A stretch of 64,000 nt of DNA. Origin: Burkholderiales bacterium 39-55-53 (GTDB lineage Bacteria > Pseudomonadota > Gammaproteobacteria > Burkholderiales > Burkholderiaceae_C). Positions 48,937-63,638 of this stretch are shown here, in pieces (within the stretch, counting starts at the first letter, position 1; each line of letters opens with the position of its first letter). A program made the position numbers and the translations under genes. The notes under the pieces are model-generated. The model was not told where the DNA came from. It did no database searches and saw nothing but the letters and a program-made list of their open reading frames with translations. The DNA is taken from assembly GCA_002282445.1 (NCBI GenBank), contig NCJK01000001.1:558001-622000 (forward strand), given 5' to 3'.

Positions 48937-50196
48937 TCACAACCAAAGCAAGGCCGCCATGGCGACCAGCGTAGGGATCAATGCGCCAAACAACAAACCG
49001 CCTGCGCCTATTGAGGCATCGGCAAAGCCCGCCCGTAATAGCGCCACGCCCGCAGGGTTGGGCGCATTGGCAATCACGGTCAAGCCGCCGCCTGCCACAG
49101 CGCCCGCCACCAAGCTGTACTTGGCTTCGTCAGAAATATCCAAAATCAGCGAGCCCAAATACGTCAGAGCGGCGTTGTCAGTGAATGCCGTCAGCACCGT
49201 GGTTCCGTAGAACAACATCTGCGGGTCCATGGTCGACACAATGGGTTGCAGCCACCACTGCTGCATGCCGCCCAACACCACCAAGCCCGCCAAGAAAAAG
49301 CCGACCAGCAAGGCTTCTTTGAGAATCAGCGGGTTTTGGTAGCGCTCATAGGCTTGTGCAAAGCCCATGAACATCACAAACAACCCAATGAATGCCACGG
49401 GGTAATGCGCCAAAGCCACCACCGCCGCCAAAAAGCCCAAATGCACCAGCACGATGGACTTGGGGATGGGCTCAGACACCGCTGCCTCGTCTGCTGCGGT
49501 GTTCACGCCCAAGTGGTGGCGCAAAAAGTACACCGCCACAGTGGCGTTCACCAGCACCGCCAAGGCCGACTTCCAGCCAAACTGGGTAAACATAAAGGCG
49601 CTGTCCCAGTTCCACACATTAGCCACCATCAACACGGGCGGTGCGGCATACGAGGTGAGCGTGCCACCAATCGAAATGTTCACAAACAACACGCCCAAGG
49701 CCAAATACTTCACCCGCTCTGGCACTTCGGGTCGAAACACTTGGGGGGCCAACATCAGCGCGGCAACGGTCATGGCTGCGGGTTCAGTGATGGCCGAGCC
49801 CAACAAGGGAACCACACTCAAACACAGCCAAGCCTTGGCCAACGAAGCCCGCATGGGCATGAGGCGCGACAAGGCATCCACGGCAGAAATGACAAAGGTC
49901 AAGATGGGCTTGGACGCCGCCACCACCATCACCACAAACACAAACAGGGGCTCGGTGTATTGGCGCGACTCAGCATAGGCCAGCGCTTGCGTGCCGTCTT
50001 GCAGCCACGCCATGCACACGATCAGGACGATGGCCCAAAAGCCAAACACCACCTCGACTTCACCCAAGAGGTGAAACAAGCCAGCATGCTCAGGGTAACG
50101 ATGGGACAGCCGTTCAAAGAACTTGGCGGCAAAAGTATGAATCAGGGCAACTGCAAAAAGAAAGGCAGCCACCCACTCAATCGAAAAGGAGGTCAT
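48937..50196 (-). CDS. Putative Na+/H+ antiporter (Na_H_antiport_3 type)
   Basis: A 419-residue membrane protein with about 10-12 helices. The two half-motifs GSAITEPAAMTVAALM and TAFTDNAALTYLGSLI recall the ion-binding regions of NhaD/ArsB-type antiporters, and the whole sequence fits the putative antiporter family PF07399. Three codons were dropped from the longest frame to start at MTSFSIEW. It precedes the ion-channel island. Confidence 0.78.
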   Translation of the reverse strand: MTSFSIEWVAAFLFAVALIHTFAAKFFERLSHRYPEHAGLFHLLGEVEVVFGFWAIVLIVCMAWLQDGTQALAYAESRQYTEPLFVFVVMVVAASKPILTFVISAVDALSRLMPMRASLAKAWLCLSVVPLLGSAITEPAAMTVAALMLAPQVFRPEVPERVKYLALGVLFVNISIGGTLTSYAAPPVLMVANVWNWDSAFMFTQFGWKSALAVLVNATVAVYFLRHHLGVNTAADEAAVSEPIPKSIVLVHLGFLAAVVALAHYPVAFIGLFVMFMGFAQAYERYQNPLILKEALLVGFFLAGLVVLGGMQQWWLQPIVSTMDPQMLFYGTTVLTAFTDNAALTYLGSLILDISDEAKYSLVAGAVAGGGLTVIANAPNPAGVALLRAGFADASIGAGGLLFGALIPTLVAMAALLWL

Positions 50197-50205
50197 GGTC
50201 AACAC

Positions 50206-50494: not shown

Positions 50495-52240
50495 ATGGCG
50501 AAGAACATCCGATTTGGGGAGTACGTACAGGCCGTCACTGTCGACTCAAACACCATCAGCTACGACAAGCTGATGCCAAAACCCAAGCTAGACAAAAACG
50601 GCAAAGAGATCACCAGCAAGCCCGAAAAGCTTAAGTTAGCGGGTGCTGACATCGCAAACCTGTTGAAGCCCTACTTCAACACGCGTTTCATGGAGCAAGC
50701 CCGTGCTGTGGTGCCCTTGGCACTGTTTTTGGCGCTGTTCCAGTACATCGTGCTGCAACGCTCGGTGGCTGATGCCACATTGATCGGCGGCGGTTTGATC
50801 GCTGTGATGATCGGCTTGATGATCTTCATGGAAGGCCTCAAGCTCGGTTTGATGCCTTTCGGCGACATCATCGGTAGCAGCTTGCCCAAAAAGCTGCCTC
50901 TGCCAGGCGTGTTGACCATTGCCTTCTTGTTGGGCATTGGCTGTACCTACGCTGAACCCGCGATTGGTACTTTGCAGGTGGCTGGTCAAATTGTTGACCC
51001 ACAAAAAGCCCCTTACCTCTACACCATGCTGAACGCACATGCACCGATCACGGTGATGTTGGTTGGCTTGGGCGTGGGCGTGGCTGCGGTGCTCGGTACC
51101 GTGCGCTTCTTGTACGACTGGTCTTTGAAGCCTTTGATCTTCATTGCCTTGACACCTGGCGTTTTGCTGACCGCTTATTGCGCGTTGGACCCCGAACTGG
51201 CCACCATCGTGGGCTTGGCTTGGGACTGCGGCGCTGTGACCACCGGTCCAGTGACTGTGCCATTGGTCTTGGCCTTGGGTATTGGCGTGGCCAACTCAGG
51301 CGGTAAAGGTAGCGGCCAGTTGTCTGGTTTCGGTATCGTGACTTTGGCTTCCATCTTCCCAATCGTGGCGGTGTTGAGCTTGGGCATTTACCTGAAGTTC
51401 ACTGTGCCTGTGGCTGACATCTTGGCTGCTGCTGAAGCTTCTAAAGCTGCCGCTGCTGCTGTGACAAGCCCAGCTTGGACTGACGTGTCCCCTGGTTTGG
51501 ACATCATGATGGGCGTGCAAGCCATCGTGCCATTGGTCTTGTTCTTGTTGGTGGTGTTGTTTGCTGTGTTGCGCGAGAAATTGCCTAACGCCTTCATCAT
51601 CACTGCTGGTTTGTTCATGTGCGTCATCGGTATGTGTACCTTCAACGTGGGCTTGACCTACGGTTTGGCTGCCTTGGGCGCACAAACAGGTTCACTCATC
51701 CCAATCGCTTTCATTAGCTTGGATGGCTCACCAGCCTTGTACCCAGCTGCTGTGGGCATGTTCATCGCTGCTGCTTTTGCATGGTTGCTCGGTTACGCCG
51801 CCACCATGGCTGAGCCAGCATTGAACGCCTTGGGCGTGACTGTGCAAAACCTGACCAACGGTTCTTTCAAGAAATCCATGTTGATGTACGCCGTCGCCTT
51901 GGGCGTGGCCACCGGCATCATGTTGGGTGTGTTGAAACTGATCTTTGATTTCAACTTGTTGTACATCTTGGTCCCTGGCTATGCCATCGCTTTGGTGTTG
52001 ACCCTGTTGTCTTCTGAAGCGTTCGTGAACGTGGGCTGGGACAGCGCGGGTGTGACCACCGGTCCTGTGACCGTGCCTTTGGTCTTGGCCATGGGCCTGG
52101 GCTTCGGTAAGGCTGTGGGCGCATTGGAAGGCTTCGGCATCTTGGCCGCAGCGTCTATCGCACCAATTTGCTCAGTGCTCGCCTTGGGCGTGTACGTGGA
52201 ATGGAAAACCAAGCGCGAACTGAAAAACGCCGCTGCTTAA
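50495..52240 (+). CDS. DUF1538 integral membrane protein (duplicated domain), probable transporter
   Basis: A 581-residue protein. After a hydrophilic N-terminus (about 1-60) it has many helices in two homologous halves; each contains a GWDSAGVTTGPVTVPLVLA-type motif (first half AWDCGAVTTGPVTVPLVLA at about 244-262, second near residue 513) followed by a GFGI segment. The two-fold repeat with conserved Gly/Pro/Thr is typical of secondary transporters. Two PII-like genes follow at once. The substrate is unknown; the link with PII-like proteins recalls SbtA/SbtB-type pairs in which the PII-like protein gates transport. Confidence 0.82.
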   Translation: MAKNIRFGEYVQAVTVDSNTISYDKLMPKPKLDKNGKEITSKPEKLKLAGADIANLLKPYFNTRFMEQARAVVPLALFLALFQYIVLQRSVADATLIGGGLIAVMIGLMIFMEGLKLGLMPFGDIIGSSLPKKLPLPGVLTIAFLLGIGCTYAEPAIGTLQVAGQIVDPQKAPYLYTMLNAHAPITVMLVGLGVGVAAVLGTVRFLYDWSLKPLIFIALTPGVLLTAYCALDPELATIVGLAWDCGAVTTGPVTVPLVLALGIGVANSGGKGSGQLSGFGIVTLASIFPIVAVLSLGIYLKFTVPVADILAAAEASKAAAAAVTSPAWTDVSPGLDIMMGVQAIVPLVLFLLVVLFAVLREKLPNAFIITAGLFMCVIGMCTFNVGLTYGLAALGAQTGSLIPIAFISLDGSPALYPAAVGMFIAAAFAWLLGYAATMAEPALNALGVTVQNLTNGSFKKSMLMYAVALGVATGIMLGVLKLIFDFNLLYILVPGYAIALVLTLLSSEAFVNVGWDSAGVTTGPVTVPLVLAMGLGFGKAVGALEGFGILAAASIAPICSVLALGVYVEWKTKRELKNAAA

Positions 52241-52294
52241 ATCCAACCAAACATCGAACTGAACATTCATTTAAAGAATTCAAAGGGAAATCAA

Positions 52295-52648
52295 ATGGCT
52301 ACCAAACGTAAAGTAACCAACCTGACCGAAGTCGCAAACATCACATGTGTGGTGCAAAAAGGCTTGGCAGACACCATCAACCAATCATTGCTGGACATCG
52401 GCGTCCAAGGCACAACCGTGCATTACGGTGTGGGCACTGGCGTGCGTGAACGCATGGGCATCTTGGGTATTGCAGTGGACGTGGAACGCGAAATCTTGAG
52501 CGTGCTCGTTCCTTCAGACCAAGTCGATCGCATTTTCGAACGCATGTACTTGGCTGGCCGCTTGGACACACCAGGCATGGGCTACATCTATGTCACCCCA
52601 TTGCTTCAAGCTGCGACCTACATCCCTCCGCATTTGATTGATGCTTGA
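52295..52648 (+). CDS. PII-like signalling protein (first of two)
   Basis: A 117-residue protein with the ferredoxin-like PII fold: the segment NITCVVQKGLADTINQSLLD starts the domain, TTVHYGVGTGVRERMGILG is at the T-loop position, and PSDQVDRIFERMYLAGRLDT precedes a C-terminal strand. It is not GlnB/GlnK by its motifs (no uridylylation Tyr recognisable). Such proteins usually bind adenine nucleotides and control an adjacent membrane protein. Confidence 0.78.
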   Translation: MATKRKVTNLTEVANITCVVQKGLADTINQSLLDIGVQGTTVHYGVGTGVRERMGILGIAVDVEREILSVLVPSDQVDRIFERMYLAGRLDTPGMGYIYVTPLLQAATYIPPHLIDA

Positions 52649-52673
52649 GTGACCAACCGATAAGGTGATACAC

Positions 52674-53054
52674 ATGAGCAACGAACACATTGATCAACAA
52701 CCAGCTGTTCCACACATCAACTACACACGCTTGATCACTTGCGTGCTGTACGAAGGTGGCGCTGAGAAGCTGCTTGAAACACTGCACCACAAAGGTGTGA
52801 ACGAGGCTTTCTATTACGGCGTGCGTGGTAACCCCATCGGCCGTGCCTCAGAAGCATCTAGCCTGCCCGAGATCTCTAAAACAGAAATCGTGCAAGCTGT
52901 GGTCGCTGCTGACCAAGCGGACTACATCTACAACACGATCTACCACGACTTCCGCTTGGACATGCCAGGCGTCGGCACGATCACCGTCAACCGTCTGACT
53001 CGCTCGTCGCAGAACGTTCTGCCCGAGGGCATCGCGCACGAAGCTGCGCACTAA
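52674..53054 (+). CDS. PII-like signalling protein (second)
   Basis: A 126-residue protein, weakly similar to the first. After a flexible N-terminus, the domain starts TRLITCVLYEGGAEKLLETL, has FYYGVRGNPIGRASE in the T-loop region and VVAADQADYIYNTIYHDFRL, GVGTITVNRL later. The start at 52674 (MSNEHIDQ) is favoured over an in-frame Met three codons upstream. Two different PII-like proteins suggest a heteromeric regulator or two inputs. Confidence 0.75.
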   Translation: MSNEHIDQQPAVPHINYTRLITCVLYEGGAEKLLETLHHKGVNEAFYYGVRGNPIGRASEASSLPEISKTEIVQAVVAADQADYIYNTIYHDFRLDMPGVGTITVNRLTRSSQNVLPEGIAHEAAH

Positions 53055-53098
53055 GCCCATTCAGCAAATAAACAATTGAAAGATTTAAGGAGTTAATC

Positions 53099-53830
53099 AT
53101 GAGTGATGAAGCAAAAAATCGCGTCCAACGCAACAAGCGCCTGATTTTTGATGCCGAGGCCTATGTCCAATTCAACACAGCCCAAGTGCAAGCCACTCGC
53201 AGCCGTGTGGAAGAAAACATCACTGACGTGATGCAGGCTTACACGATTGCTGCCTCTGGCAACCGTGAACTCATCATGCGCGCGACCGAAGACGTGTACC
53301 GCAACCGCATCTTCATGTTGGAAAACCTGAAGACCACTTCTGAAGCTGAAGAAATTTTCCAACGCTCCATGATCAACCGCGCACGCATCGAAATGCTGGA
53401 CAACCGCAGCAAGATGAACCGCGAATTGCTCAAAGCGTCTGAAAACATGCTCGAAGCCATCAAGAACGTCAAAGCTGTCGCCAAGAACTTCTTGGACGTC
53501 TGCGAAAAAATGACGGACCATGTGGATGACGTGGCTGACGAAAACGCGCAACTGTTTGACGGCGAATTGCTGGCCAAGATGCACGCTGCTAGCCCCATCA
53601 GCAACGAGTCTCGCGTTTTGGAAAACTACGACATGGTTAATCTGATCCGTGACAACGCATTGGGCAACCGCAAAGTCATTCAAGCTTTGACCGACGCCAG
53701 CTTGGCTTTGGCTGAAGAATTGAGCGAGTTGCAAGACGAAGCCAACAGCCAACGCGACACCATCGTGTCCTTGCGCGAGAAGGTTGACGCCAACCAACAC
53801 CGTGTAGCTGACGACATCTTCAAACTCTAA
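53099..53830 (+). CDS. Coiled-coil protein of unknown function
   Basis: A 243-residue protein, nearly all helical with heptad-like repeats over about residues 15-240 and no signal peptide or membrane helix. It is rich in Glu, Asn and Arg. No domain is recognised. It is the last gene before a hairpin terminator and belongs to the operon with the PII-like proteins, so it could be a scaffold or an effector. Confidence 0.75.
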   Translation: MSDEAKNRVQRNKRLIFDAEAYVQFNTAQVQATRSRVEENITDVMQAYTIAASGNRELIMRATEDVYRNRIFMLENLKTTSEAEEIFQRSMINRARIEMLDNRSKMNRELLKASENMLEAIKNVKAVAKNFLDVCEKMTDHVDDVADENAQLFDGELLAKMHAASPISNESRVLENYDMVNLIRDNALGNRKVIQALTDASLALAEELSELQDEANSQRDTIVSLREKVDANQHRVADDIFKL

Positions 53831-53852
53831 GCCCTCACCGGCCTAGTCCCTA

Positions 53853-53886
53853 AAGAAGCAATCACATGTGATTGCTTCTTTTTTTC
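53853..53886 (+). terminator. Rho-independent terminator after the coiled-coil gene
   Basis: The palindrome AGAAGCAATCACATGTGATTGCTTCT (53854-53879) is followed by a T-run. It splits the DUF1538/PII set from the channel genes, which begin 32 bases later. Confidence 0.85.
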
Positions 53887-53910
53887 CCCAACCCCTTTCT
53901 TTGCCGCCCC

Positions 53911-54816
53911 ATGCGCCCCCCTTTACGACAAGTCGTGATGGACGTCCTTGATGGATCGCCCAACTACAAAGCTAGCCGATACGTAGAGTGGCTCATCACC
54001 ATCGTGGTGTTGACCAACTGCTCCGCTGTGATTTTGGACTCAGTGCCCGAAATACATGCCGAGTACAAAGATTTTTTCCATGAATTTGAGTTTTGGAGTG
54101 TGATGTTTTTCACACTCGAATACGTTTTGCGCGTGTGGTCGCTAGGCGCCAAGTTTGCCGACAGCGAATGGCGTGGACGCCGCCAGTACATCTTCAGCCC
54201 GTTTGGCCTGATTGATTTCTTTGCCACCATGCCGCATTACTTGCACATCTTCTTCCCGACGCTCGACTTGCGCATCTTGCGCGTGTTGCGACTGCTGCGG
54301 GTGCTCAAGCTGTCCAAGTACAACACAGCCCTGCAAGACCTTTTCCATGCGGTGTACTCTGAGCGCAAAGCCTTTGGCTCTGCCGCGTTCTTGCTGACCA
54401 TTGCCACAGTCGTGTCTGCGTCACTCATGCATTTTGCTGAAGGCCACCATCAGCCCGAGTTCTTTGGCACGATTCCGCATTCCATTTACTGGGCCATCGT
54501 CACCATCACCTCAGGCTACGGCAACGTCGACCCGATGACCAAAGCAGGCGAAGCCATTGCGCTGATCACCGGCTTCTTGGGCGTGTGTATGGCGGCCATC
54601 ATGACCGGTATCGTGGCCTCGGCCTTCTCGAACCAAGTGGCACGTAAGAAAGCGGCTTTTGAGGCCCAACTGCGTGAAATCTTCAAAGACGGCAATATGT
54701 CTGAAGAAGAGGAAGCCTCTCTCAAACGCCTGCAAGCACACTACCGCCTCACCGATGAGCAAGTTCAAGCGATGCTGCAACGTGCACAGAGCAAAACAGC
54801 GGGAGTACGTTCATGA
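53911..54816 (+). CDS. Voltage-gated ion channel with SGYGN filter (first of an overlapping pair)
   Basis: A 301-residue six-helix channel. S4 has Arg at every third position (DLRILRVLRLLRVLKLSK, about 119-136). The pore loop reads TITSGYGNVDP at 198-208, where potassium channels have TVGYGD: the second position is Ser and the last Asp is Asn. After S6, a cytosolic tail (about 250-295) reads LREIFKDGNMSEEEEASL and resembles the helical TerB-like or EF-hand-like pattern. ATG 53911 was taken as start since the longer frame would overlap the terminator. Ion selectivity is not evident. It overlaps the next gene by 4 bases. Confidence 0.8.
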   Translation: MRPPLRQVVMDVLDGSPNYKASRYVEWLITIVVLTNCSAVILDSVPEIHAEYKDFFHEFEFWSVMFFTLEYVLRVWSLGAKFADSEWRGRRQYIFSPFGLIDFFATMPHYLHIFFPTLDLRILRVLRLLRVLKLSKYNTALQDLFHAVYSERKAFGSAAFLLTIATVVSASLMHFAEGHHQPEFFGTIPHSIYWAIVTITSGYGNVDPMTKAGEAIALITGFLGVCMAAIMTGIVASAFSNQVARKKAAFEAQLREIFKDGNMSEEEEASLKRLQAHYRLTDEQVQAMLQRAQSKTAGVRS

Positions 54817-55787
54817 CCGAAACGAACGCAACTCGCACTCCTACGATGTTTCAACGGATTCAACGCCGTACCTACGAAATCGTCGATGGCGAAGTGCCAG
54901 ATAAATACAGCCAAGCTCTAGAGGTGTTCATTGCCTTGCTTGTGATTGCCAACGTGATTGGCATCATCTTGGAGTCTGTGCCCGAAATTCACGACCAATA
55001 TGCGTCTCAGTTCCATTACTTTGACATGTTCAGCGTGATCGTGTTCTCAATCGAGTACTTGGTCCGTGTGTGGTCCTACGGCGCTAAATATTGCGAGAAC
55101 GGCGCACCCATGACTTTCGAGAAGTCATGCAGTGGCCGCAAAGCCTACATCTTTAGCTTCTACGGCATCATCGACTTCTTGAGCACGGTTCCGTTCTACC
55201 TGCAGCTGCTGTTCCCAGGCGCTGACTTGCGCGTACTGCGCATGTTCCGCTTGCTGCGTATTTTCAAACTCTCACGCTACAACAGCGCGTTTGATGACAT
55301 GGTGGCAGCCGTCAAAGCCGAACGTGACTCTTTCTCGTCGGCTGTGTTCTTGATGTTCATTGCTTGCTTGTTGTTCTCCTCGCTGATTTACATCATCGAA
55401 GGCACAGACCAGCCTGAGGTGTTCCCATCCATCCCTGCAGCGATGCATTGGTTCATGATCACCATCATTTCTGGCTGGGGTAACGTGGACCCCGTCACCT
55501 TTGTGGGCTCGATCTTGGTGATCTGCACGCAAATCCTGTCGATCGCGCTGGCCGCCATTTTGACGGGTGTGGTGGCAACTGCCTACACCGCGCAAGTCGA
55601 ACGCCGCGAAGCCCTGTATGAAATGGAGCTACGTGAGATTTTGGCTGACGGTATAGTGACCCCTGAAGAGCAGAAGAAACTCAAACTCATGCAAGCCAAA
55701 TTTGGCATGTCGGACGATCAAGTGGAATCCTTGATCGTTCAAATGGAAGAGGAAAAACGGCTCTCTGGCAATCACCAAAACTCCTAG
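54813..55787 (+). CDS. Voltage-gated ion channel with SGWGN filter (second of the pair)
   Basis: A 324-residue paralogue of the upstream channel. S4 is ADLRVLRMFRLLRIFKLSRYN (138-157 region), and the pore is TIISGWGNVDP at 217-227, with Trp in place of the filter Tyr. The tail (LREILADGIVTPEEQKKLKL and later GMSDDQVESL) is similar to that of the first channel. Translation is coupled to the first by an ATGA overlap, so equal production and heteromeric assembly are plausible. Confidence 0.82.
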   Translation: MTETNATRTPTMFQRIQRRTYEIVDGEVPDKYSQALEVFIALLVIANVIGIILESVPEIHDQYASQFHYFDMFSVIVFSIEYLVRVWSYGAKYCENGAPMTFEKSCSGRKAYIFSFYGIIDFLSTVPFYLQLLFPGADLRVLRMFRLLRIFKLSRYNSAFDDMVAAVKAERDSFSSAVFLMFIACLLFSSLIYIIEGTDQPEVFPSIPAAMHWFMITIISGWGNVDPVTFVGSILVICTQILSIALAAILTGVVATAYTAQVERREALYEMELREILADGIVTPEEQKKLKLMQAKFGMSDDQVESLIVQMEEEKRLSGNHQNS

Positions 55788-55792
55788 AACAC

Positions 55793-57076
55793 ATGAACAA
55801 ACTCCTGCGCCGCACTTTTGACTACTTCTTAATTGCGCTAGGCCCCATTTGGGTCGCCTTGGCCATGTATGTGTTAGCCAAAGGCGAGGCATGGGCGTTG
55901 GGTTGGAACCGTGTGCTGTTTGACAGCAACCCGTATTGGATGTTGGTGGTCATGCCTTTGGGCTTTGCCCTAATTCGCTACAGCACCATGAAGCTGGCCC
56001 CACAGGCGGCAGGCAGCGGTATTCCGCAAGTCATGGCCGTGATTCAAATGGGCCGTGTGCGCACCTATTTGAATACGCTGATTTCGCCAATTCAGGCGGT
56101 GTTCAAAACCATTTTTGTCATCATTGGCATGCTGTGCGGCGCATCGATCGGTCGTGAAGGCCCTGCCGTGCAAATTGGTGCGGCCATCATGGCCAACTGG
56201 AGCATGAATGCGGTGCGCCGTATTCGCGTGGATGCACGCACCTTGGTCATCATTGGTGGAGCGGCTGGTTTGGCCTCTGCGTTCACCACACCGTTGGCTG
56301 GTGCGATGTATGCCTTTGAAGAGCTGGGCTCTCGCCGCCACTTCCGCTCACGCGCGTTTGCGGTGTTGTGCATTGTGTTGTCGGCTTGGGCTAGCTACCG
56401 CTTGTTTGACGGCTACTCGCCGCTCGCCTTGAACGTGCCTGTGCCTGCACTACCCACCGTGGGCGTGCTGGTTGTCCTGTGTGTTTTGTGTGGCCTGCTG
56501 GCCGGAGCCATGACATGGATCATGGGCTTTGGTTTGCCACGCTTCATGCCCAAGACCAACACGCCTTTGCAAGCGGCTGGTTTGGCTGCTGCTGTGGGTT
56601 TGCTGCTGGCGATCTTGGCCATCGTGACCCAAGGCCTGACCCTAGGCAGCGGCAACGGCGTGGCTTACCAAATGCTCAACCTTGACCCCGCGCAAGACCA
56701 AACCACAGGCTTTGGTTTGTTGAAATGGTTGTCCACCACGCTGAGCTTTGCCACGGGCATTCCAGGCGGCATCTTGGCCCCATCACTGTCGATTGGTGCG
56801 GGTGTGGGCCAAGACTTCTCGCTCTACTTTGTGGATGGCCAAGACCGCGTGTTTTTGATCGCGGCAGGCATGGCTGCATTTTTAGCCGGCGTGATTCAAG
56901 CCCCACTCACTGCCACCTTGGTGGTGGTTGAAATGACCGGCATGTACGACCACATCTTGGCCATGCTGATCATGAGCTTTTTGGCCAGCTGGTCTGCTCA
57001 TTTGCTGTGCCGCACCAGTTTGTATCAGGTGTTGATGATGCGACTCATCCCCACCCCGCCCCCTGCTAAACCCTGA
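55793..57076 (+). CDS. ClC-family chloride channel/antiporter
   Basis: A 427-residue membrane protein. The anion-pathway motifs GSGIPQ (about 73), GREGPAVQIGA (with the gating Glu) and GIPGGILAPSLSIGAG are all present. Whether it is a channel or an H+-coupled exchanger cannot be told; the internal proton-glutamate position would decide. It starts five bases after the SGWGN channel gene and is likely in the same transcript. Confidence 0.92.
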   Translation: MNKLLRRTFDYFLIALGPIWVALAMYVLAKGEAWALGWNRVLFDSNPYWMLVVMPLGFALIRYSTMKLAPQAAGSGIPQVMAVIQMGRVRTYLNTLISPIQAVFKTIFVIIGMLCGASIGREGPAVQIGAAIMANWSMNAVRRIRVDARTLVIIGGAAGLASAFTTPLAGAMYAFEELGSRRHFRSRAFAVLCIVLSAWASYRLFDGYSPLALNVPVPALPTVGVLVVLCVLCGLLAGAMTWIMGFGLPRFMPKTNTPLQAAGLAAAVGLLLAILAIVTQGLTLGSGNGVAYQMLNLDPAQDQTTGFGLLKWLSTTLSFATGIPGGILAPSLSIGAGVGQDFSLYFVDGQDRVFLIAAGMAAFLAGVIQAPLTATLVVVEMTGMYDHILAMLIMSFLASWSAHLLCRTSLYQVLMMRLIPTPPPAKP

Positions 57077-57096
57077 CATTTTTAAGAGGACAACAA

Positions 57097-58221
57097 ATGT
57101 CATTTAACCTTCGCCAAGAACTGCAAGCACCCACCACCGTGCTAGGCAAGCGCTACATGCTGCTGTTGCTATGCACCATCGTGGCATCGGTGTTCTTCTT
57201 GTTTTTCAGCCTAGAGCTGCCCCAAGCTTTTCACCACAGCCAAACGTGGGTGATGTGGTTTGAGTTGTTTTTCTTGGTGGTGTTTTCTGTCGACTTGGTG
57301 CTCCGCTTAGCGACACATCCGTTCACAGACCTCAAAGGCTTTTTACTACTGGCCCTAGACTTTTTGGCCATTGTTCCATCCGCCTTGGTTGTGTTGACCT
57401 ACTGGAACCTGATGCCTGAGCAGCACTTAGACATCTTGGGCCTGTTGCGCCTGTTCCGACTGCTGCGTGTCATGCAACTGCTGCGCATGAGCCACTTGCT
57501 CACCGACATTTTGGGCGTTTCGGTGTTCAGCTTGGTGTTTGCCAACATGGCGACACACTTGGGATTGCGCGTGTTTGTCAGCGCCACCGACAAAACCATG
57601 AACCTCAATTTGGCGCAATACATTGAGCGTCCTGTATTGCTGCTGGCGGTCACGGCCGTGGGCTCTGTCATGGGCATTGCCTTGGCGATCACGTTTGGTG
57701 TGGTCAACCGCAAACGCGATGACGTGACAGAAATGCACCGCACCACCATGGATGCCGTGGACACGTTTGAACGCGACTTCCGCGATGTGTTTGAAAACGT
57801 CAGCCCCGAGCAACGGGAAACCATTTTTGGCACATTCCGCAAAGAGATGGCTTTGTTCTTAAAGAGCGCCATCAGCTACCCGCACTTCAAACAATCGGCA
57901 TTGACCTTCTTGGATCAAGTGCGCGCTGTGGTCAAAGCACGACCCAGTATGGATGTGCCCTTCCATGCAGTGCTGGTGCAGCGTATCTCGGGCTTCTTAA
58001 CCAAAACGCAAATCGCATTTCCAGCCGCGTTTTATGGCTGGTTGAGCCTCTTGGCCAACTTGTACTTTGTGCTGGTCATGATGGCTACGCCAGGCATCAC
58101 TGGCATGTTTGTCCAACTGCTGGTGATTTTTGTGTTCCAAGGTCTGTTGGTCATCATCCAAGACATGGACTACCCATTGGATGCAGATGCCACCATCTTC
58201 AATGCCAAGATTCTGGATTGA
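57097..58221 (+). CDS. Voltage-sensor-like membrane protein without a recognised pore, with DUF4239-like C-terminus
   Basis: A 374-residue protein. Helices at about 20-38, 55-72 and 81-101 precede an S4-like LLRLFRLLRVMQLLRMSHLL (116-135). No K+ or Na+ filter motif follows. There is a further helix at about 180-202, a soluble helical segment of about 100 residues, and two final helices (308-330, 335-354) ending in a conserved-looking DMDYPLDAD motif, which is reminiscent of the DUF4239 family. I infer a voltage-sensing protein with a non-channel effector, or a pore of another kind. Confidence 0.7.
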   Translation: MSFNLRQELQAPTTVLGKRYMLLLLCTIVASVFFLFFSLELPQAFHHSQTWVMWFELFFLVVFSVDLVLRLATHPFTDLKGFLLLALDFLAIVPSALVVLTYWNLMPEQHLDILGLLRLFRLLRVMQLLRMSHLLTDILGVSVFSLVFANMATHLGLRVFVSATDKTMNLNLAQYIERPVLLLAVTAVGSVMGIALAITFGVVNRKRDDVTEMHRTTMDAVDTFERDFRDVFENVSPEQRETIFGTFRKEMALFLKSAISYPHFKQSALTFLDQVRAVVKARPSMDVPFHAVLVQRISGFLTKTQIAFPAAFYGWLSLLANLYFVLVMMATPGITGMFVQLLVIFVFQGLLVIIQDMDYPLDADATIFNAKILD

Positions 58222-58239
58222 TGTTTGGATAGACCAAAC

Positions 58240-58270
58240 AAAAAAGCCCCGCCTACACAGCGGGGCTTTT
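58240..58270. terminator. Bidirectional Rho-independent terminator between channel operon and nhaD
   Basis: AAAAGCCCCGC and GCGGGGCTTTT pair around a seven-base loop, with A and T runs on both sides, between convergent genes. Confidence 0.9.
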
Positions 58271-58286
58271 TTTATGAATTGGCCGC

Positions 58287-59573
58287 TCAATGCATCCAGT
58301 TGTATTGCAATATGTAAACCGCAGCGCCAGCCAAGTAGCCCACCACGGCCAAGCCGCTGATCTTTTTGAAGTACCAAACAAAGTCGATTTTCTCAATACC
58401 CATTGCGGCCACACCTGCAGCTGAACCGATGATCAAGATCGAGCCCCCTGTTCCCGCGCAGTAAGCCAAGAAGGTCCACAAAAAGCTGTCCGTGGCGTGC
58501 ACATCCAAGCTGTACATGCCCATAGACGCAGCCACCAAAGGCACGTTGTCGACGATGGCACTGAACACCCCAATCAACATCACGATGACATCCTGCCGCC
58601 CGACGGTTTGGTCTAGCCATTGCGCCAGACCCGTCAAGATGTGGGTGTGCTCGAGCGTGGCCACAGCCAGCAAGATACCGATGAAGAAAACAATAGACGA
58701 CATATCAATGCGCGACAACGCGTGCGACAGTTCTAGCTGACTGCGCTCTTCGGCGGATTTGCCTTTGTGCAAGATGTCCCCCACCAACCACAGCAAACCC
58801 AAGCCCAACAAGACCCCCATGAACGGCGGCAAATGCGTGATGGTTTTGAATGCAGGCACAGCCACCAACACACCCAGCCCCAAGAAAAACATGATGTTGC
58901 GCTCAAAAACCGATGTGTGCGTGCCGTGATGCTCTCCTTCGGCATGATGCGGTGGCTCGACCAATTGCCCGCGCAGCATCCAAGCGCAAATGACCAAAGG
59001 CACGAGCAAGTTCACGATAGACGGCAAGATCAAGGATTGAATGATCGACATGGCGGTGATTTGCCCACCAATCCACAGCATGGTGGTGGTGACATCCCCG
59101 ATCGGCGACCAAGCCCCGCCGGCATTGGCCGCAATGACGATAAGGCCCGCAAACAACAAGCGGTCCTCACGCTTGTGAAGCAGCTTTTTCATCAACGACA
59201 CCATCACAATGGTGGTGGTGAGGTTGTCCAAAATAGCACTCAAGAAAAAGGTCACACATCCAACTACCCACAGCAAGGTGGCGAGCTGGGTAGTCTTGAT
59301 GCGAGAGGTGACCACATCAAACCCTTTGTGGGCATCGACCACTTCCACAATGGTCATGGCCCCCATCAAAAAGAAGACAATTTGCGCAGTGCTGATCAGT
59401 GTTTCTGATAATTCATGGTTAATCGCATGGCTGTCGTTTGACATCACCGCATAAACCGCCCACATCAAGCCCGCGCCTAACAAGGCGGATGCTGATTTGT
59501 TGATTTTGATGGGATGCTCAAATGCGATGGCGGCATATGTCACTACGAACAGAAGAATGAGTAAAGTATTCAT
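58287..59573 (-). CDS. nhaD: NhaD-type Na+/H+ antiporter
   Basis: A 428-residue inner-membrane protein with about 12 helices of the ArsB/NhaD superfamily. The ALLGAGLMWAVYAV segment near the N-terminus, FLSAILDNLTTTIVMVSLM and GAWSPIGDVTTTMLW, and VGRQDVIVMLIGVFSAIVDNVPLVAAS are typical. Start MNTLLILLF was chosen, six codons below the longest frame. It is divergent from the Kv-type channel gene. Confidence 0.9.
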   Translation of the reverse strand: MNTLLILLFVVTYAAIAFEHPIKINKSASALLGAGLMWAVYAVMSNDSHAINHELSETLISTAQIVFFLMGAMTIVEVVDAHKGFDVVTSRIKTTQLATLLWVVGCVTFFLSAILDNLTTTIVMVSLMKKLLHKREDRLLFAGLIVIAANAGGAWSPIGDVTTTMLWIGGQITAMSIIQSLILPSIVNLLVPLVICAWMLRGQLVEPPHHAEGEHHGTHTSVFERNIMFFLGLGVLVAVPAFKTITHLPPFMGVLLGLGLLWLVGDILHKGKSAEERSQLELSHALSRIDMSSIVFFIGILLAVATLEHTHILTGLAQWLDQTVGRQDVIVMLIGVFSAIVDNVPLVAASMGMYSLDVHATDSFLWTFLAYCAGTGGSILIIGSAAGVAAMGIEKIDFVWYFKKISGLAVVGYLAGAAVYILQYNWMH

Positions 59574-59636
59574 AAAATGACTGTAACGCATGATTCAGCA
59601 CCGCACTCTTTTGGAATTGAACTCGCATAGAGCACT

Positions 59637-60545
59637 ATGAAACACAAAATCAATAACAAACGCATTCAGGCATTCAACGCTAAGCTTCATGAAAACGTCG
59701 AACGCCCGTTAGATGGTTGGCGGTTAAAGGTCTACACCATCATCTTTGAAGCAGACACTGCGGCAGGCCGCCGCTTTGACATTGCCTTGATTTGGGCGAT
59801 TGTGTTGAGCGTGTTGGTGGTCATGGCTGACAGCGTGCAGTCGCTGCACAATAGCTTTGGCACTCCGTTCTTGGTTGCTGAATGGTTTTTCACGCTGGTG
59901 TTCACCGCTGAATACATTGCCCGTTTGGTGAGCTGCCCCAAGCCCTTGCGCTATGCCACCAGCTTTTTTGGTGTGATCGATTTGTTGTCGCTACTACCTA
60001 CATACTTGGCGCTGCTTTTCCCCGAGCTGTATGCATTGCTGGATGTGCGTGTCATGCGTTTGTTGCGCATCTTCCGTGTGCTCAAGCTGCCAGCTTATGT
60101 GGCCGAGTACCAGTGGTTGCTGCTGGCTTTGAGTGACAGTCGCCGCAAGATCATGGTGTTTTTGTCGTTCGTGCTGTTTTTGGTCATCGTGCTGGGCAGT
60201 TTGATGTATGTGGTGGAAGGCCCTGAGAACGGCTTCACCAGCATTCCAATCTCTATCTACTGGGCCATCACCACCCTCACCACCGTGGGCTTTGGTGACA
60301 TCACCGCCAAGACGGCACTGGGGCAGTTCATTGCGTCGTGCATGATGCTGATTGGCTGGGGAACACTGGCTGTGCCCACGGGCATTGTGACGGCCGAGAT
60401 GGCCGCACACCGTGGTGGCATGCACGAAGAGTCGTATGACGCCACCACCCGCACATGCCACGAGTGCTTGACCGAAGGCCACTTACCCGAAGCGATTTAC
60501 TGCCTCAATTGCGGGGCCAAGCTGCCCAACTACTTACACGACTGA
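59637..60545 (+). CDS. Kv-type potassium channel with C-terminal zinc ribbon
   Basis: A 302-residue six-helix channel. The S4-like segment LDVRVMRLLRIFRVLKLP (135-152) and the filter TTVGFGD at 215-221 mark a potassium channel. The last about 30 residues contain CHEC (274-277) and CLNC (289-292), the spacing of a small zinc ribbon. It is transcribed alone on the plus strand between two minus-strand units. Confidence 0.88.
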   Translation: MKHKINNKRIQAFNAKLHENVERPLDGWRLKVYTIIFEADTAAGRRFDIALIWAIVLSVLVVMADSVQSLHNSFGTPFLVAEWFFTLVFTAEYIARLVSCPKPLRYATSFFGVIDLLSLLPTYLALLFPELYALLDVRVMRLLRIFRVLKLPAYVAEYQWLLLALSDSRRKIMVFLSFVLFLVIVLGSLMYVVEGPENGFTSIPISIYWAITTLTTVGFGDITAKTALGQFIASCMMLIGWGTLAVPTGIVTAEMAAHRGGMHEESYDATTRTCHECLTEGHLPEAIYCLNCGAKLPNYLHD

Positions 60546-60547
60546 AT

Positions 60548-61345
60548 TTAGTCTTTCAGTCGCTGTTTGATCTCGCGCACTTCAATCAACACTTGATCTA
60601 AACGCTCGCGCAAGGCATCGCGCTCTGCGCGGGCTTTGCCTTCTTCTTCGTCATTGCTGGCATCCACGATGACGGCAATGAAGAGGTTCAAGATCACGAA
60701 GGTCGAAATCAGAATAAAGATGACGAAGAAGATCCACGCGTAGGGGAACACTTCCATGATGGGGCGCGCCACACTGTCCGACCAGCCATCACCCGTCATC
60801 ACTTGGAACAAGGTATAGAGGCTCAGACCCAAAGTACCAAATGTCTCTGGGAAATCTTTGGCAAACAAATTGGTGGCCAACACGCCCGACACATAAAAGA
60901 TCAAGCCCATCACCGCGCCCACCGAACCAAGACCAGGAATTGCGGCCAACAGGCCCGCAATCACTTTGTGCAAACTCGGAACCTTGGTAGCCAAGCGCAG
61001 CACCCGCAAAACGCGCAGGGCTCGCAACACAGCAAATGAACCAGAGGCAGGCACCAAAGCAATACCAATGACGATGAAGTCAAATACCGCCCAGCCGTCT
61101 TTGAAAAAGCCAAAACCGCGGGCCAATAACAAGGCCACGATTTCCAATACAAAAATCGACAAGATGATGTCGTCTGCTGCCTCCATCGCTGCGCCAAAGT
61201 GTTCTTGCATGTACACACTGGTGTCTAGCCCCATCAATACAGCATTCACAATGATCAGCACAATCAAAAACGATTGCACTTTGCGGTGCATGACTGCGGC
61301 TTCAATTTTTTGACGCCATGACAGCGGCTTAGGTTCGATATTCAT
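60548..61345 (-). CDS. Bacterial voltage-gated Na+/Ca2+-type channel (BacNav/Cav family), copy 1
   Basis: A 265-residue six-helix channel. S4 is VLRALRVLRVLRLATK (106-121), and the S6 region is VFPYAWIFFVIFILISTFVILNLFIAVIVDAS-like with conserved INLF-type features (not quoted whole). The filter is TGDGWSD at 184-190, where NaChBac has TLESWSM; acidic residues at positions 3 and 7 of the filter recall the engineered calcium-selective CavAb filter TLDDWSD. A coiled-coil C-terminus (about 231-265) suits tetramers. It is the last gene of the minus-strand set. Confidence 0.9.
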   Translation of the reverse strand: MNIEPKPLSWRQKIEAAVMHRKVQSFLIVLIIVNAVLMGLDTSVYMQEHFGAAMEAADDIILSIFVLEIVALLLARGFGFFKDGWAVFDFIVIGIALVPASGSFAVLRALRVLRVLRLATKVPSLHKVIAGLLAAIPGLGSVGAVMGLIFYVSGVLATNLFAKDFPETFGTLGLSLYTLFQVMTGDGWSDSVARPIMEVFPYAWIFFVIFILISTFVILNLFIAVIVDASNDEEEGKARAERDALRERLDQVLIEVREIKQRLKD

Positions 61346-61365
61346 AAAGTTTCGTCTTTGAAGGG

Positions 61366-62805
61366 TCAGTCGTGTTTAAGGCTTTGCCACACCGTGTGCT
61401 CGGTGGTTTGGCCTGCATCGGCCAAGCGCTGGCTGATGTGGGCATGGTCGCTTAGAGCGGCCACTTCGCGCATTTGGTTGAGTAAGGTGCGATAACGCGC
61501 CAAGGCGTAGTCTGGGTTGGTGTGCAGCAAGGTGGGGTTGTGCTCATTGCCATCGATATGTGGCTCTTGCTTCAAGGCTTCTTCACGCTCCACACGCAAC
61601 TGATCGGTGAAAGCCGACGACATGATGGCTGCTGGAATCGCAAACACACCAATACCCAACAAAGCCAATGTAACGGTCAAAAACCGCCCTGCAGGTGTGA
61701 TGGGCGTGATGTCACCATAGCCCACGCTAGCCAGCGTCACCACAGCCCAATACATGGCCGTGGGGATGTATTCAAACTTATCGGGCTGTGCGCCACGCTC
61801 AAGCAAATAGCCCATGGCAGCGGTGATAAACACCAACATCATCATGACGAACGAGGAGGCAGCCAACACAGACAGCTCACGGCGAATCACCATGAACATG
61901 GTGGAGGTCGACTTGTTGTAACGGCCCAGCTTGAGCAAGCGCACCAAGCGCACGATACGCAAGAAACGCAAATCAATGAAACTCGACAGCAAAGCCTCTA
62001 GTAAAAACGGCAGGATAGACGCCAAGTCAATCAGGCCGCTGAAAGAAGTACCAAACTTCCATCGCGCACGCATAGGATGCGCCACATTGTGTTCAGCGGA
62101 CGAATACATGCGTAAGGCGTATTCAATGCTGAACAAGGTGAAAGCAATGGCATCCAAAATGAAAAAATGAGTTTCAAAATCAGCTCGGATGCTATCGACC
62201 GACTCAAACACAATCGACAGGGTAGACAACGCGATCCAGAAGATCAAAAACAGATCCACCATCAAAGGCAGGCCATCGCGCTTGTCGTCTGAAGGGAACA
62301 TCAGGGCATGCACTTTTTGGCGACGCGTCATGCCAGCAGTCTCGCGCCTGAAGTTTTCAAAGGCAGGCAGCAATGTAGAAGTGACTTTGAACACCCTCAA
62401 CAAACGCAAGGCTCTGAGCAAACGCAAATCAAGGCTGACAAAGCTGGCCAAGTAAAACGGCAAGATAGCCAACAAGTCGATGATGGCGTAGCGGCTACTC
62501 ACATAACTGAGGCGCGCAAAGCGCGACTTAGCAAACTCGGGGTCGGAAGGTGCAGTAAACCAGCGCAGCAAGTATTCGATGGTGAACACAATGACCGACA
62601 AGGTTTCAAACGCATTAAGTTGCGTGGCATAGGCCAACTCAAACGCATCAGCGGTTTCCAACACCATGGCGACCATATTGAGCAAGATCAACGAGGTAGA
62701 CCAACGACTCACGGTGGCGTGCAAACCATCGGGGTTATGTTCGTTGAACAGCAGATCAAAGACGCGCTGTCGCCACAGTTTTTTGCTCGGTTCAAGTGTT
62801 TGCAT
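61366..62805 (-). CDS. Channel with two tandem voltage sensors and one potassium pore
   Basis: A 479-residue protein. A first S1-S4 module (about 33-142) has the S4 LDLRLLRALRLLRVFK, but it is followed by a 40-residue linker, not by a pore. A second S1-S4 module (about 181-295) has S4 IDLRFLRIVRLVRLLKLGR and is followed by S5 (about 308-335), the filter TLASVGYGD (357-365) and S6 (374-402), then a tail of about 75 residues. So there are ten predicted helices, with one pore per chain. Start MQTLEPSKK was chosen. It lies between the two near-duplicate Nav/Cav-type genes. Confidence 0.85.
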   Translation of the reverse strand: MQTLEPSKKLWRQRVFDLLFNEHNPDGLHATVSRWSTSLILLNMVAMVLETADAFELAYATQLNAFETLSVIVFTIEYLLRWFTAPSDPEFAKSRFARLSYVSSRYAIIDLLAILPFYLASFVSLDLRLLRALRLLRVFKVTSTLLPAFENFRRETAGMTRRQKVHALMFPSDDKRDGLPLMVDLFLIFWIALSTLSIVFESVDSIRADFETHFFILDAIAFTLFSIEYALRMYSSAEHNVAHPMRARWKFGTSFSGLIDLASILPFLLEALLSSFIDLRFLRIVRLVRLLKLGRYNKSTSTMFMVIRRELSVLAASSFVMMMLVFITAAMGYLLERGAQPDKFEYIPTAMYWAVVTLASVGYGDITPITPAGRFLTVTLALLGIGVFAIPAAIMSSAFTDQLRVEREEALKQEPHIDGNEHNPTLLHTNPDYALARYRTLLNQMREVAALSDHAHISQRLADAGQTTEHTVWQSLKHD

Positions 62806-62840
62806 TAAAACTTCTCCCAATATTTTTTCGTGTGCTGAGC

Positions 62841-63638
62841 TCAGTCTTTGAGCTGCTGCTTGATGTCTTTGACCTCAATCAACAACCGATCTAATCGCTC
62901 GCGCAAGCCATCGCGCTCTGCGCGTGCAGCGGCTTCGGCTTCATGGTTGCTGGCATCCACGATGACGGCAATGAAGAGGTTCAAGATCACGAAAGTCGAA
63001 ATCAGGATAAAGATGACGAAGAAGATCCACGCGTAGGGAAACACTTCCATGATGGGGCGTGCCACACTGTCGGACCAGCCGTCACCCGTCATCACTTGGA
63101 ACAAGGTGTACAGGCTCAGGCCCAAAGTTCCAAATGTCTCTGGAAAGTCTTGGGCAAACAAGTTGGTGGCCAACACGCCAGACACGTAAAAGATTAAACC
63201 CATCACCATGCCCACCGAGCTCAGGCCGGGAATCGCAGCAAACAAACCTGCAATGACTTTTTGCAAGCTAGGCACTTTGGTGAATAGGCGAAGGACCCGC
63301 AACACGCGCAAAGCACGCATCACGGCAAACGGACCAGATGCTGGAACCAGTGCAATGGCAATGACGATAAAGTCAAACACCGACCACGGGTCTTTGAAAA
63401 AACTCAAGCGTCTGACAAATAGCAAAGCGGCAATCTCGGCAACAAAGATGAACAAAATGATTTCATCTGCCAACGTGAGCCATGTGCCGTACTCAGCCAC
63501 CATGCTGGGGCTGGTTTCCAAGCCCATCAACGCGGCGTTGAGAAGGATTAAGCCAATCAGAAACAGTTGTACTTTTCTGTGCATCACAACGGCTTGAACG
63601 GCTTGACGCCATGGGCTGAGTCCGTGTTTGGAAGTCAT
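62841..63638 (-). CDS. Bacterial voltage-gated Na+/Ca2+-type channel (BacNav/Cav family), copy 2
   Basis: A 265-residue channel, closely similar to copy 1 over the pore and S6, with the same TGDGWSD filter and the same coiled-coil tail. The N-terminal sensor region is more diverged; S4 is VMRALRVLRVLRLFTK. It is the first gene of the minus-strand set of three. The same filter in both copies suggests the same ion preference but perhaps different voltage dependence. Confidence 0.9.
   Translation of the reverse strand: MTSKHGLSPWRQAVQAVVMHRKVQLFLIGLILLNAALMGLETSPSMVAEYGTWLTLADEIILFIFVAEIAALLFVRRLSFFKDPWSVFDFIVIAIALVPASGPFAVMRALRVLRVLRLFTKVPSLQKVIAGLFAAIPGLSSVGMVMGLIFYVSGVLATNLFAQDFPETFGTLGLSLYTLFQVMTGDGWSDSVARPIMEVFPYAWIFFVIFILISTFVILNLFIAVIVDASNHEAEAAARAERDGLRERLDRLLIEVKDIKQQLKD

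Follow-up and report, generated by a model that had tools for sequence, protein, structure and literature searches.

Background

Proteins of the PII type control transporters, as in the pairs GlnK-AmtB and SbtB-SbtA, and the role of voltage-gated channels in bacteria is, to our knowledge, understood to be largely open. Here we analyse the window, i.e. a stretch of 64,000 nucleotides from Burkholderiales bacterium 39-55-53 (contig NCJK01000001.1, positions 558,001 to 622,000; genome of 2.56 Mb), and in particular an island of 13 genes at its positions 50495-63638, for which we use, in that order, the shorthand UMP, PIIa, PIIb, CC, SGYGN, SGWGN, ClC, VSD, NhaD, Kv, Nav1, VV and Nav2. As in the GlnK-AmtB and SbtB-SbtA pairs, a PII-type gene adjoins the gene of a membrane transporter; unlike in those pairs, the partner is a putative cation/proton antiporter, the PII-like genes are two in number, and genes for voltage-gated channels lie further on. 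What the gene content predicts is a PII-linked transport of a new sort, with two channels that carry non-standard filters. The likeliest reading, at about even odds, is that the first eight genes, with the core that they contain, constitute a PII-controlled ion-balance module, namely one in which cations, anions and protons would be moved together to keep ions and cell volume in balance in dilute water. This reading is built on gene order, co-direction, conservation and the filters, from which we infer every functional step, including complex formation, the ligand and the habitat.

According to the parts of the source at hand, UmpAB of Halomonas zhaodongensis is a heterodimer with Na+(Li+,K+)/H+ antiport activity (PMC5484666). 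UMP resembles it in having two DUF1538 halves that match UmpA and UmpB; unlike the system described in those parts (PMC5484666), it is one fused protein, i.e. a single frame of 581 amino acids versus two separate genes, it scores low against the equivalog models, and it is followed by two PII-like genes, CC and channel genes. The terms PII and P-II are absent from the Halomonas paper as far as its text was available, 'PII' is only part of a sequence motif in the sole other paper found with both this term and DUF1538, and the DUF1538-PII pairing seems unreported in the literature searched, which held few subscription papers. Within sources that were open in part, a search on UmpAB gave again only the Halomonas paper, and nothing pertinent was found on PII-like proteins with an antiporter or on PII-NG.

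Results and discussion

Conserved order of the antiporter, PII-like and coiled-coil genes

The first eight genes of the island, and the signal that follows them, are:

50495..52240, + strand: UMP, a fused UmpA-UmpB-like DUF1538 protein (Pfam DUF1538), predicted Na+(Li+,K+)/H+ antiporter
52295..52648, + strand: PIIa, a PII-like protein (Pfam P-II, 30.5 bits; cut-off 25)
52665..53054, + strand: PIIb, a second PII-like protein (profile match to PIIa)
53099..53830, + strand: CC, a helical (coiled-coil) protein of no known family (AlphaFold model)
53911..54816, + strand: SGYGN, a voltage-sensor channel with filter T-S-G-Y-G-N (Ion_trans, 103.5 bits; earliest start codon 53872)
54813..55787, + strand: SGWGN, a voltage-sensor channel with filter I-S-G-W-G-N (Ion_trans, 95.2 bits; 4-bp overlap with the SGYGN gene)
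55793..57076, + strand: ClC, with the residues of H+/Cl- exchangers (Voltage_CLC, 236.6 bits)
57097..58221, + strand: VSD, a voltage sensor without recognisable pore (Ion_trans profile positions 6-144 of 241 only)
58240..58272, no strand: a strong, two-way terminator-like hairpin between VSD and NhaD (14-pair stem, A and T tracts)

Because these genes are co-directional, with gaps of only 54, 16, 44, 80, -4, 5 and 20 bp, and because the hairpin stands at their end, they look like a single transcription unit, and 50495-58221 probably is one.

DUF1538 matches UMP in two stretches (Pfam, 330 bits, E 5.5e-99), and its halves match the UmpA and UmpB models of NCBIfam with E-values of 3.4e-58 and 4.8e-49, respectively. 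PIIa is 78-98% identical to its counterparts in six relatives. In the case of PIIb, the P-II family of Pfam is not matched, and the relation to PIIa was recovered by hhalign (probability 95.6, E 1.2e-8). CC gave nothing above cut-off in Pfam or NCBIfam, and its best sequence match in PDB (E 0.0061) is the helical viral Immediate early protein 1. The AlphaFold model of CC (predicted local distance difference test, pLDDT, 83.6; predicted template modelling score, pTM, 0.56) consists of three helices of about 75 residues each, for which no PDB fold was found at E<=0.001. As neither a sequence nor a fold match was good enough, we refrained from naming CC by homology. It is present in five of the 398 other sampled genomes of the order, in four of which it follows UMP-PIIa-PIIb, the fifth being a partial copy that carries a stop and lies at a contig end.

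A comparison of 20 hand-picked loci, in which tblastn revealed CC in L099 and both the PII genes and CC in L095, recovered UMP-PIIa-PIIb-CC intact and in the same order in 11 loci from three lineages: three of the genus (the window, L039 and L107), four of Polynucleobacter and Oxalobacteraceae (L096-L099, UMP of L098 being truncated where its contig begins) and four of a further family (L151-L154). SGYGN comes next after CC in nine of these 11. Six contig-cut loci (L023, L093, L094, with CC at the contig edge, L095, L100 and L108) fit the core order as far as they can be read, L101 begins inside SGYGN, and L155 and L156 are without the core. Across families the core order is kept at 36-98% identity, and the full order UMP-PIIa-PIIb-CC-SGYGN-SGWGN-ClC is present in the window, L039, L107 and, in another family, L151 and L152. 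Two of the cut loci, L023 and L108, possibly belong to the same genome; L023 is labelled Bordetella parapertussis, its channel groups with that of the window's group in the tree, and it is probably a mislabelled metagenome bin.

The pairing of DUF1538 with PII extends much further. DUF1538 occurs in 126 of 398 genomes sampled across the phylum, and in all 30 of the best-scoring loci (L114-L143, each from a different one of the 126 genomes) it has a co-directional PII-like gene no more than 1.5 kb away; this count was made with the profile extended with its own matches (E<=1e-5), and the window-type PII profile alone gave 23 of 30 at E<=1e-3. The pairing is thus apparently general across the phylum, and the PII-like protein may point to the regulator of the widespread DUF1538 antiporters. 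PII-like genes in tandem were found in the core loci and in one further genome (G133, L109). Within the order we surveyed 199 genomes, i.e. the window's own, 83 others of the genus, 36 of the same family and 79 from the rest of the order, and DUF1538 is present in six, of which four (the window's own among them) belong to the genus and two to other families.

Two channels with non-standard filters

SGYGN probably starts at 53911, as the alignments with many relatives begin at residue 14 of the reading from 53872. The standard K+-selective filter of Kv channels is of the TVGYGD type. SGYGN is like the Kv channels in PDB (Kv2, Kv4, Kv7 and others) in its six-segment voltage-sensor architecture, with an E-value of 1.1e-19 to Kv2.1, and SGWGN is like them by its Ion_trans match; unlike Kv channels, both have filters (TSGYGN and ISGWGN) that fall outside the TVGYGD type and are kept in relatives with small variation. 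The pattern TIT[SA]G[YFW]GN is found in 78 of 81 SGYGN rows, the rest being SGYGH (L092) and SGSGN (L098, L099), and TI[IV][SA]GWGN in 70 of 74 SGWGN rows; L151 and L152 have STGYGN and VGGWGN. Serine for the usual valine, asparagine for aspartate and tryptophan for tyrosine argue against plain K+ selectivity and, as judged from these residues, the two filters fit no standard type. The tail of SGWGN has sub-threshold matches only (PCI, E 0.00065; TerB, E 0.0026).

The SGYGN scan took 80 loci, the best of 100. Its closest channels in named records belong to Limnohabitans, other Comamonadaceae and Burkholderiales, some from lakes or ponds, and it is on account of these organisms that we call the window's genome Limnohabitans-like. 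SGWGN lies directly downstream of SGYGN in 69 of 77 scorable loci. Upstream, two arrangements can be distinguished: in arrangement A, that of the window, SGYGN is preceded by UMP-PIIa-PIIb-CC, and in arrangement B by a homologue of the tandem-sensor gene VV (VV homologue-SGYGN-SGWGN), directly so in 66 of 75 scorable loci. In 62 of these 75 the VV homologue is itself preceded by a protein of 200 amino acids, with one likely membrane anchor and of no known family.

Two ClC subfamilies beside the core

In ClC exchangers a gating glutamate, an inner glutamate and a pore tyrosine have established roles. Alignment with ClcA indicates that the window's ClC keeps all of them, i.e. GREGP, the second glutamate and the tyrosine, as in the ClcA H+/Cl- exchangers. 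The ClC in the same slot of L151 and L152 is unlike ClcA and belongs to a distant subfamily without the gating glutamate; it is about 27% identical to the window's ClC and about 50% to the ClC that stands beside UMP in L154. GMFGP replaces GREGP in the proteins at L151:11062-12447 and L154:11619-13010, both beside the UMP-PII core, and in L153 and L154 this same other subfamily adjoins UMP divergently. Since the same-slot proteins are so distant, and one lacks the gating glutamate, recruitment of a ClC apparently took place more than once. That two distinct subfamilies recur next to the core is the strongest indication that chloride movement may be part of the function.

A candidate ion-balance module

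Taken together, these associations suggest the following scheme. UMP would, as a UmpAB-type protein, exchange Na+ or K+ for protons, and its activity would be set by the two PII-like proteins in response to a small molecule that they sense, probably an adenine nucleotide. CC would be a helical partner, perhaps one that tethers the PII-like proteins to membrane partners; SGYGN and SGWGN would be subunits of one voltage-gated cation channel, possibly a heterotetramer, and ClC would let Cl- go along with the cations. The outcome would be a near-electroneutral loading or release of salt, tuned to the energy state, by which a cell in very dilute water might keep its proton balance and internal pH. 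NhaD, Kv, Nav1, VV, Nav2 and VSD would be further ion genes assembled round the core.

Gating by the PII-like proteins is plausible. A stronger form, in which the two sensors and CC directly gate a SGYGN-SGWGN heteromer of new selectivity and act with UmpAB and ClC as one complex, strikes us as unlikely; if it held, the energy state would set the membrane potential, and the complex would be a bacterial device for metabolic-electrical coupling. With its two non-standard filter types, the gene set may in any case offer a testable handle on what voltage-gated channels do in bacteria.

Several findings weigh against the module. The UmpA and UmpB scores of UMP, 196.8 and 167.1 bits, are far under the NCBIfam equivalog cut-offs of 490 and 500, which is why we use the name UmpAB-like. 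In the promoter scan, the strand of the first eight genes had no sigma-70-like site, which speaks against a tidy operon; the only such site in the region is on the other strand, and shuffles average 9.1. The eight loci without an adjacent SGWGN (L093-L098, L100 and L101) all fall in one deep clade, and in the Oxalobacteraceae/Polynucleobacter group SGWGN does not adjoin SGYGN. Most SGYGN/SGWGN pairs occur without UMP or PII, and conversely L153 and L154 have UMP-PIIa-PIIb-CC without channels; as each half is found without the other, core and channels can work apart. The best trees of the channel also nest the window's group, but a single clade of core-bearing channels is not rejected by the approximately unbiased (AU) test (p-AU 0.294).

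It may accordingly be asked whether only UmpAB and the PII-like proteins form a functional unit, with the channels and ClC acting independently in a stretch rich in ion genes. The phylum-wide pairing of DUF1538 with PII, set beside channels that were seen with it in few lineages only, favours this more restricted unit, as do the halves found apart. However, in nine of the 11 intact loci, from more than one lineage, the gene after CC is SGYGN, and ClC proteins of two distant subfamilies are repeatedly found next to the core, so that we hold the restricted unit to be possible but doubtful.

The first-pass annotation of the window had read the island as one of coordinated control of membrane potential and ion traffic, perhaps gated by PII-like nucleotide sensing. 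Part of this stands, since the core keeps its order in relatives, mostly with SGYGN next to it, and the state of affairs that had been named as telling against a single system, i.e. genes scattered and never linked, was not seen for UMP-PIIa-PIIb-CC. The rest is linked loosely: VSD, NhaD, Kv, Nav1, VV and Nav2 are not tied to the core in the window's order, and the single system of 13 genes was rejected because only the first four to seven genes hold their order across families.

As to the history of the channel, SGYGN trees were made with 82 rows and, in a second case, with 33 selected rows and five SGWGN as root, for which the tree tool warned of long branches meeting. In both, the window's four arrangement-A rows nest inside the clade of arrangement B, and the remaining arrangement-A rows group together in a clade of their own, whose branching point is deeper in the rooted tree. 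The label changes on the tree number two when L094 and L101 are set aside, and four with both included (L094 then being counted as core-less). The simplest reading, which we hold loosely, would be that arrangement A is old, that B replaced it in Comamonadaceae, and that in the window's group the core regained its place next to the channel. That SGYGN and core were joined twice independently was dropped as a firm result, since a single clade is not rejected by the AU test.

Channel richness and clustering

Counts of Ion_trans are counts of domain matches, and a gene with two sensors may count twice. By this measure the 83 other genomes of the genus have a median of six matches (range 1 to at least 13; 10 or more in five), whereas the 36 genomes from other genera of the family have at most two (any in 17) and the 79 from the rest of the order at most three (any in 42). 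Richness in voltage-gated channels is a trait of the genus, and since none of the 83 other sampled members lacks a match, and the median is as given, the genus would be a natural model. As far as the partly accessible literature goes, the search on Limnohabitans channels gave no report of this richness, and the search on channels in freshwater likewise nothing pertinent. Five genomes of the genus without an SGYGN match at E<=1e-60 (G012, G019, G027, G051 and G076) reach 10-13 Ion_trans matches, of which several share a contig; other channel clusters exist there.

The window's genome, with 10 matches, is at the upper end of the genus, and eight of the 10 (seven of nine genes) lie in the island, inside about 9.6 kb; this clustering is beyond chance. 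The first-pass annotation had named the genes of the island and their order, and all open reading frames were indeed found in place with matching domains (DUF1538, P-II for PIIa, Ion_trans, Voltage_CLC and CitMHS/NhaD). It had also, rightly, described a dense island with voltage-sensor genes side by side; its counts, namely at least eleven transport or signalling membrane genes and five or six voltage-sensor proteins, become ten membrane proteins, two PII-like proteins and one coiled coil, with seven voltage-sensor genes and, by Ion_trans matches, eight sensors (61366-62820 holds two). As regards the claim that so many channels are rare in bacteria, the richness as such, being shared by the genus, is less unusual than claimed.

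Such richness could also mean that the island is a neutral hotspot, in which channel genes spread and clustered by duplication without a shared function; the genus-wide abundance speaks for this, and Nav1 and Nav2 resemble a partly converted duplicate pair. The island, however, holds several pore types and not copies of one, and the core order is kept across families at the divergence given above, so that we rate a neutral origin as quite improbable.

Position of the channels near urea and purine genes

Arrangement-B runs of VV-SGYGN-SGWGN (L024-L092) lie near genes of purine catabolism, urease and the urea ATP-binding cassette (ABC) transporter in many Limnohabitans-like genomes, and 46 of the 80 SGYGN loci (best of 100) have a member of a urea or purine gene cluster in the same stretch. 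Identified on the cluster members or similar proteins were UreD, UrtE, UrtD, hydroxyisourate hydrolase, xanthine permease and a fusion of ureidoimidazoline decarboxylase and allantoate hydrolase; a further member, without a family match, we take to be PuuD.

Together with the nearby PII-like proteins, this raises the question of whether the channel pair serves nitrogen use, in that it deals with ammonium or with the charge that urea breakdown imposes. Channel and UreD are indeed no more than 6.5 kb apart in 22 of the 43 genomes of the genus that have both, and in L039 UreD comes right after Kv. Nevertheless, in 17 of the 21 remaining genomes the two are on different contigs (in the other four they are far apart on one contig), their presence in the genus is not associated (43/11/23/7; Fisher p 0.79), and the urease of the window's genome is on another contig. 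Moreover, three genomes without the channel (G005, G034 and G083) keep a VV-length Ion_trans gene beside UreD, for which reason shared position by descent explains much of the link; given the lack of association, we treat it as an inherited position. In the loci of other families no urea genes were recognised by eye, no search aimed at them having been made. The positional link is clear, yet with presence unassociated and the link seen only among near relatives, a function in urea or ammonium handling was set aside as very unlikely.

Other ion genes in and around the island

The remaining genes of the island, and the antiporter gene that flanks it, are:

58287..59591, - strand: NhaD-type Na+/H+ antiporter (CitMHS/NhaD domain; NF038006, 165.4 bits, cut-off 80)
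59637..60545, + strand: Kv, a potassium-type channel with filter TTVGFGD (Ion_trans, 104.2 bits)
60548..61345, - strand: Nav1, a NaChBac-type channel with filter TGDGWSD (Ion_trans, 146.9 bits)
61366..62820, - strand: VV, with two voltage sensors and one potassium-type pore, SVGYGD (Ion_trans, two stretches)
62841..63638, - strand: Nav2, a second TGDGWSD channel (Ion_trans, 143.1 bits), 78% identical to Nav1
48937..50205, - strand: a putative Na+/H+ antiporter (Na_H_antiport_3, 604 bits), divergent from UMP, listed as a neighbour without implied membership of the island

NhaD faces the eight-gene run, Kv stands alone, and Nav2-VV-Nav1 run in the opposite direction. VSD, the last gene of the eight-gene run, has no match in the 388 other sampled genomes of the order and was seen only in the window, L039 (of which L105 is a duplicate) and L107; its structure model was discarded as unusable (pLDDT 46.3). 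The NhaD protein scores 421.7 bits against TIGR00775, under the cut-off of 577.1. Other families, too, have NhaD, Kv and VV near the core, though placed and combined differently. The Oxalobacteraceae/Polynucleobacter loci have, in varying combinations, TrkA, TrkH, a CPA-type antiporter, NhaD, Kv, VV, SGWGN and a YjbE-family protein, as well as a flavin disulfide-type oxidoreductase that is nearest to lipoamide dehydrogenase, under its cut-off.

The filters of Kv (TVGFGD) and VV (SVGYGD) are of the TVG[YF]GD type. The first sensor copy of VV covers positions 7-110 of the Ion_trans profile only, and a search on tandem voltage sensors in bacteria gave nothing pertinent in the partly accessible literature. 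Nav1 has its best PDB match in 6keb (E 7e-68). Nav1 and Nav2 differ in their first halves, but their DNA is almost the same in the pore region (blocks with up to 55 of 57 identical bases), and they look like the outcome of gene conversion or partial duplication. According to the available parts of a study of CavMr, a native prokaryotic Cav channel whose filter is TLEGWVD, glycine at filter position 4 is a determinant of Ca2+ selectivity (PMC7041947). TGDGWSD agrees with that filter in glycine 4 and aspartate 7, but has G as its second and D as its third residue (PMC7041947, same parts); by sequence, Nav1 and Nav2 thus have a CavMr-like filter in the sense of glycine at 4 and an acidic or polar residue at 7. 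Their relatives in the scanned loci (eight rows) have TLESW[AS][DE]. A third NaChBac-type channel of the window's genome (L001, G000:C1:731069-731713) has TLEGWSE, close to the TLEGWVD of CavMr.

A flavin-reductase-like gene adjoins the Nav-VV-Nav run of the window and is also found after the Nav1-VV pairs of other Limnohabitans-like genomes (L103:15735-16349, L031:16599-17219 and L036:16568-17209); as this gene recurs beside it, the Nav-VV-Nav edge of the island appears to be conserved in position.

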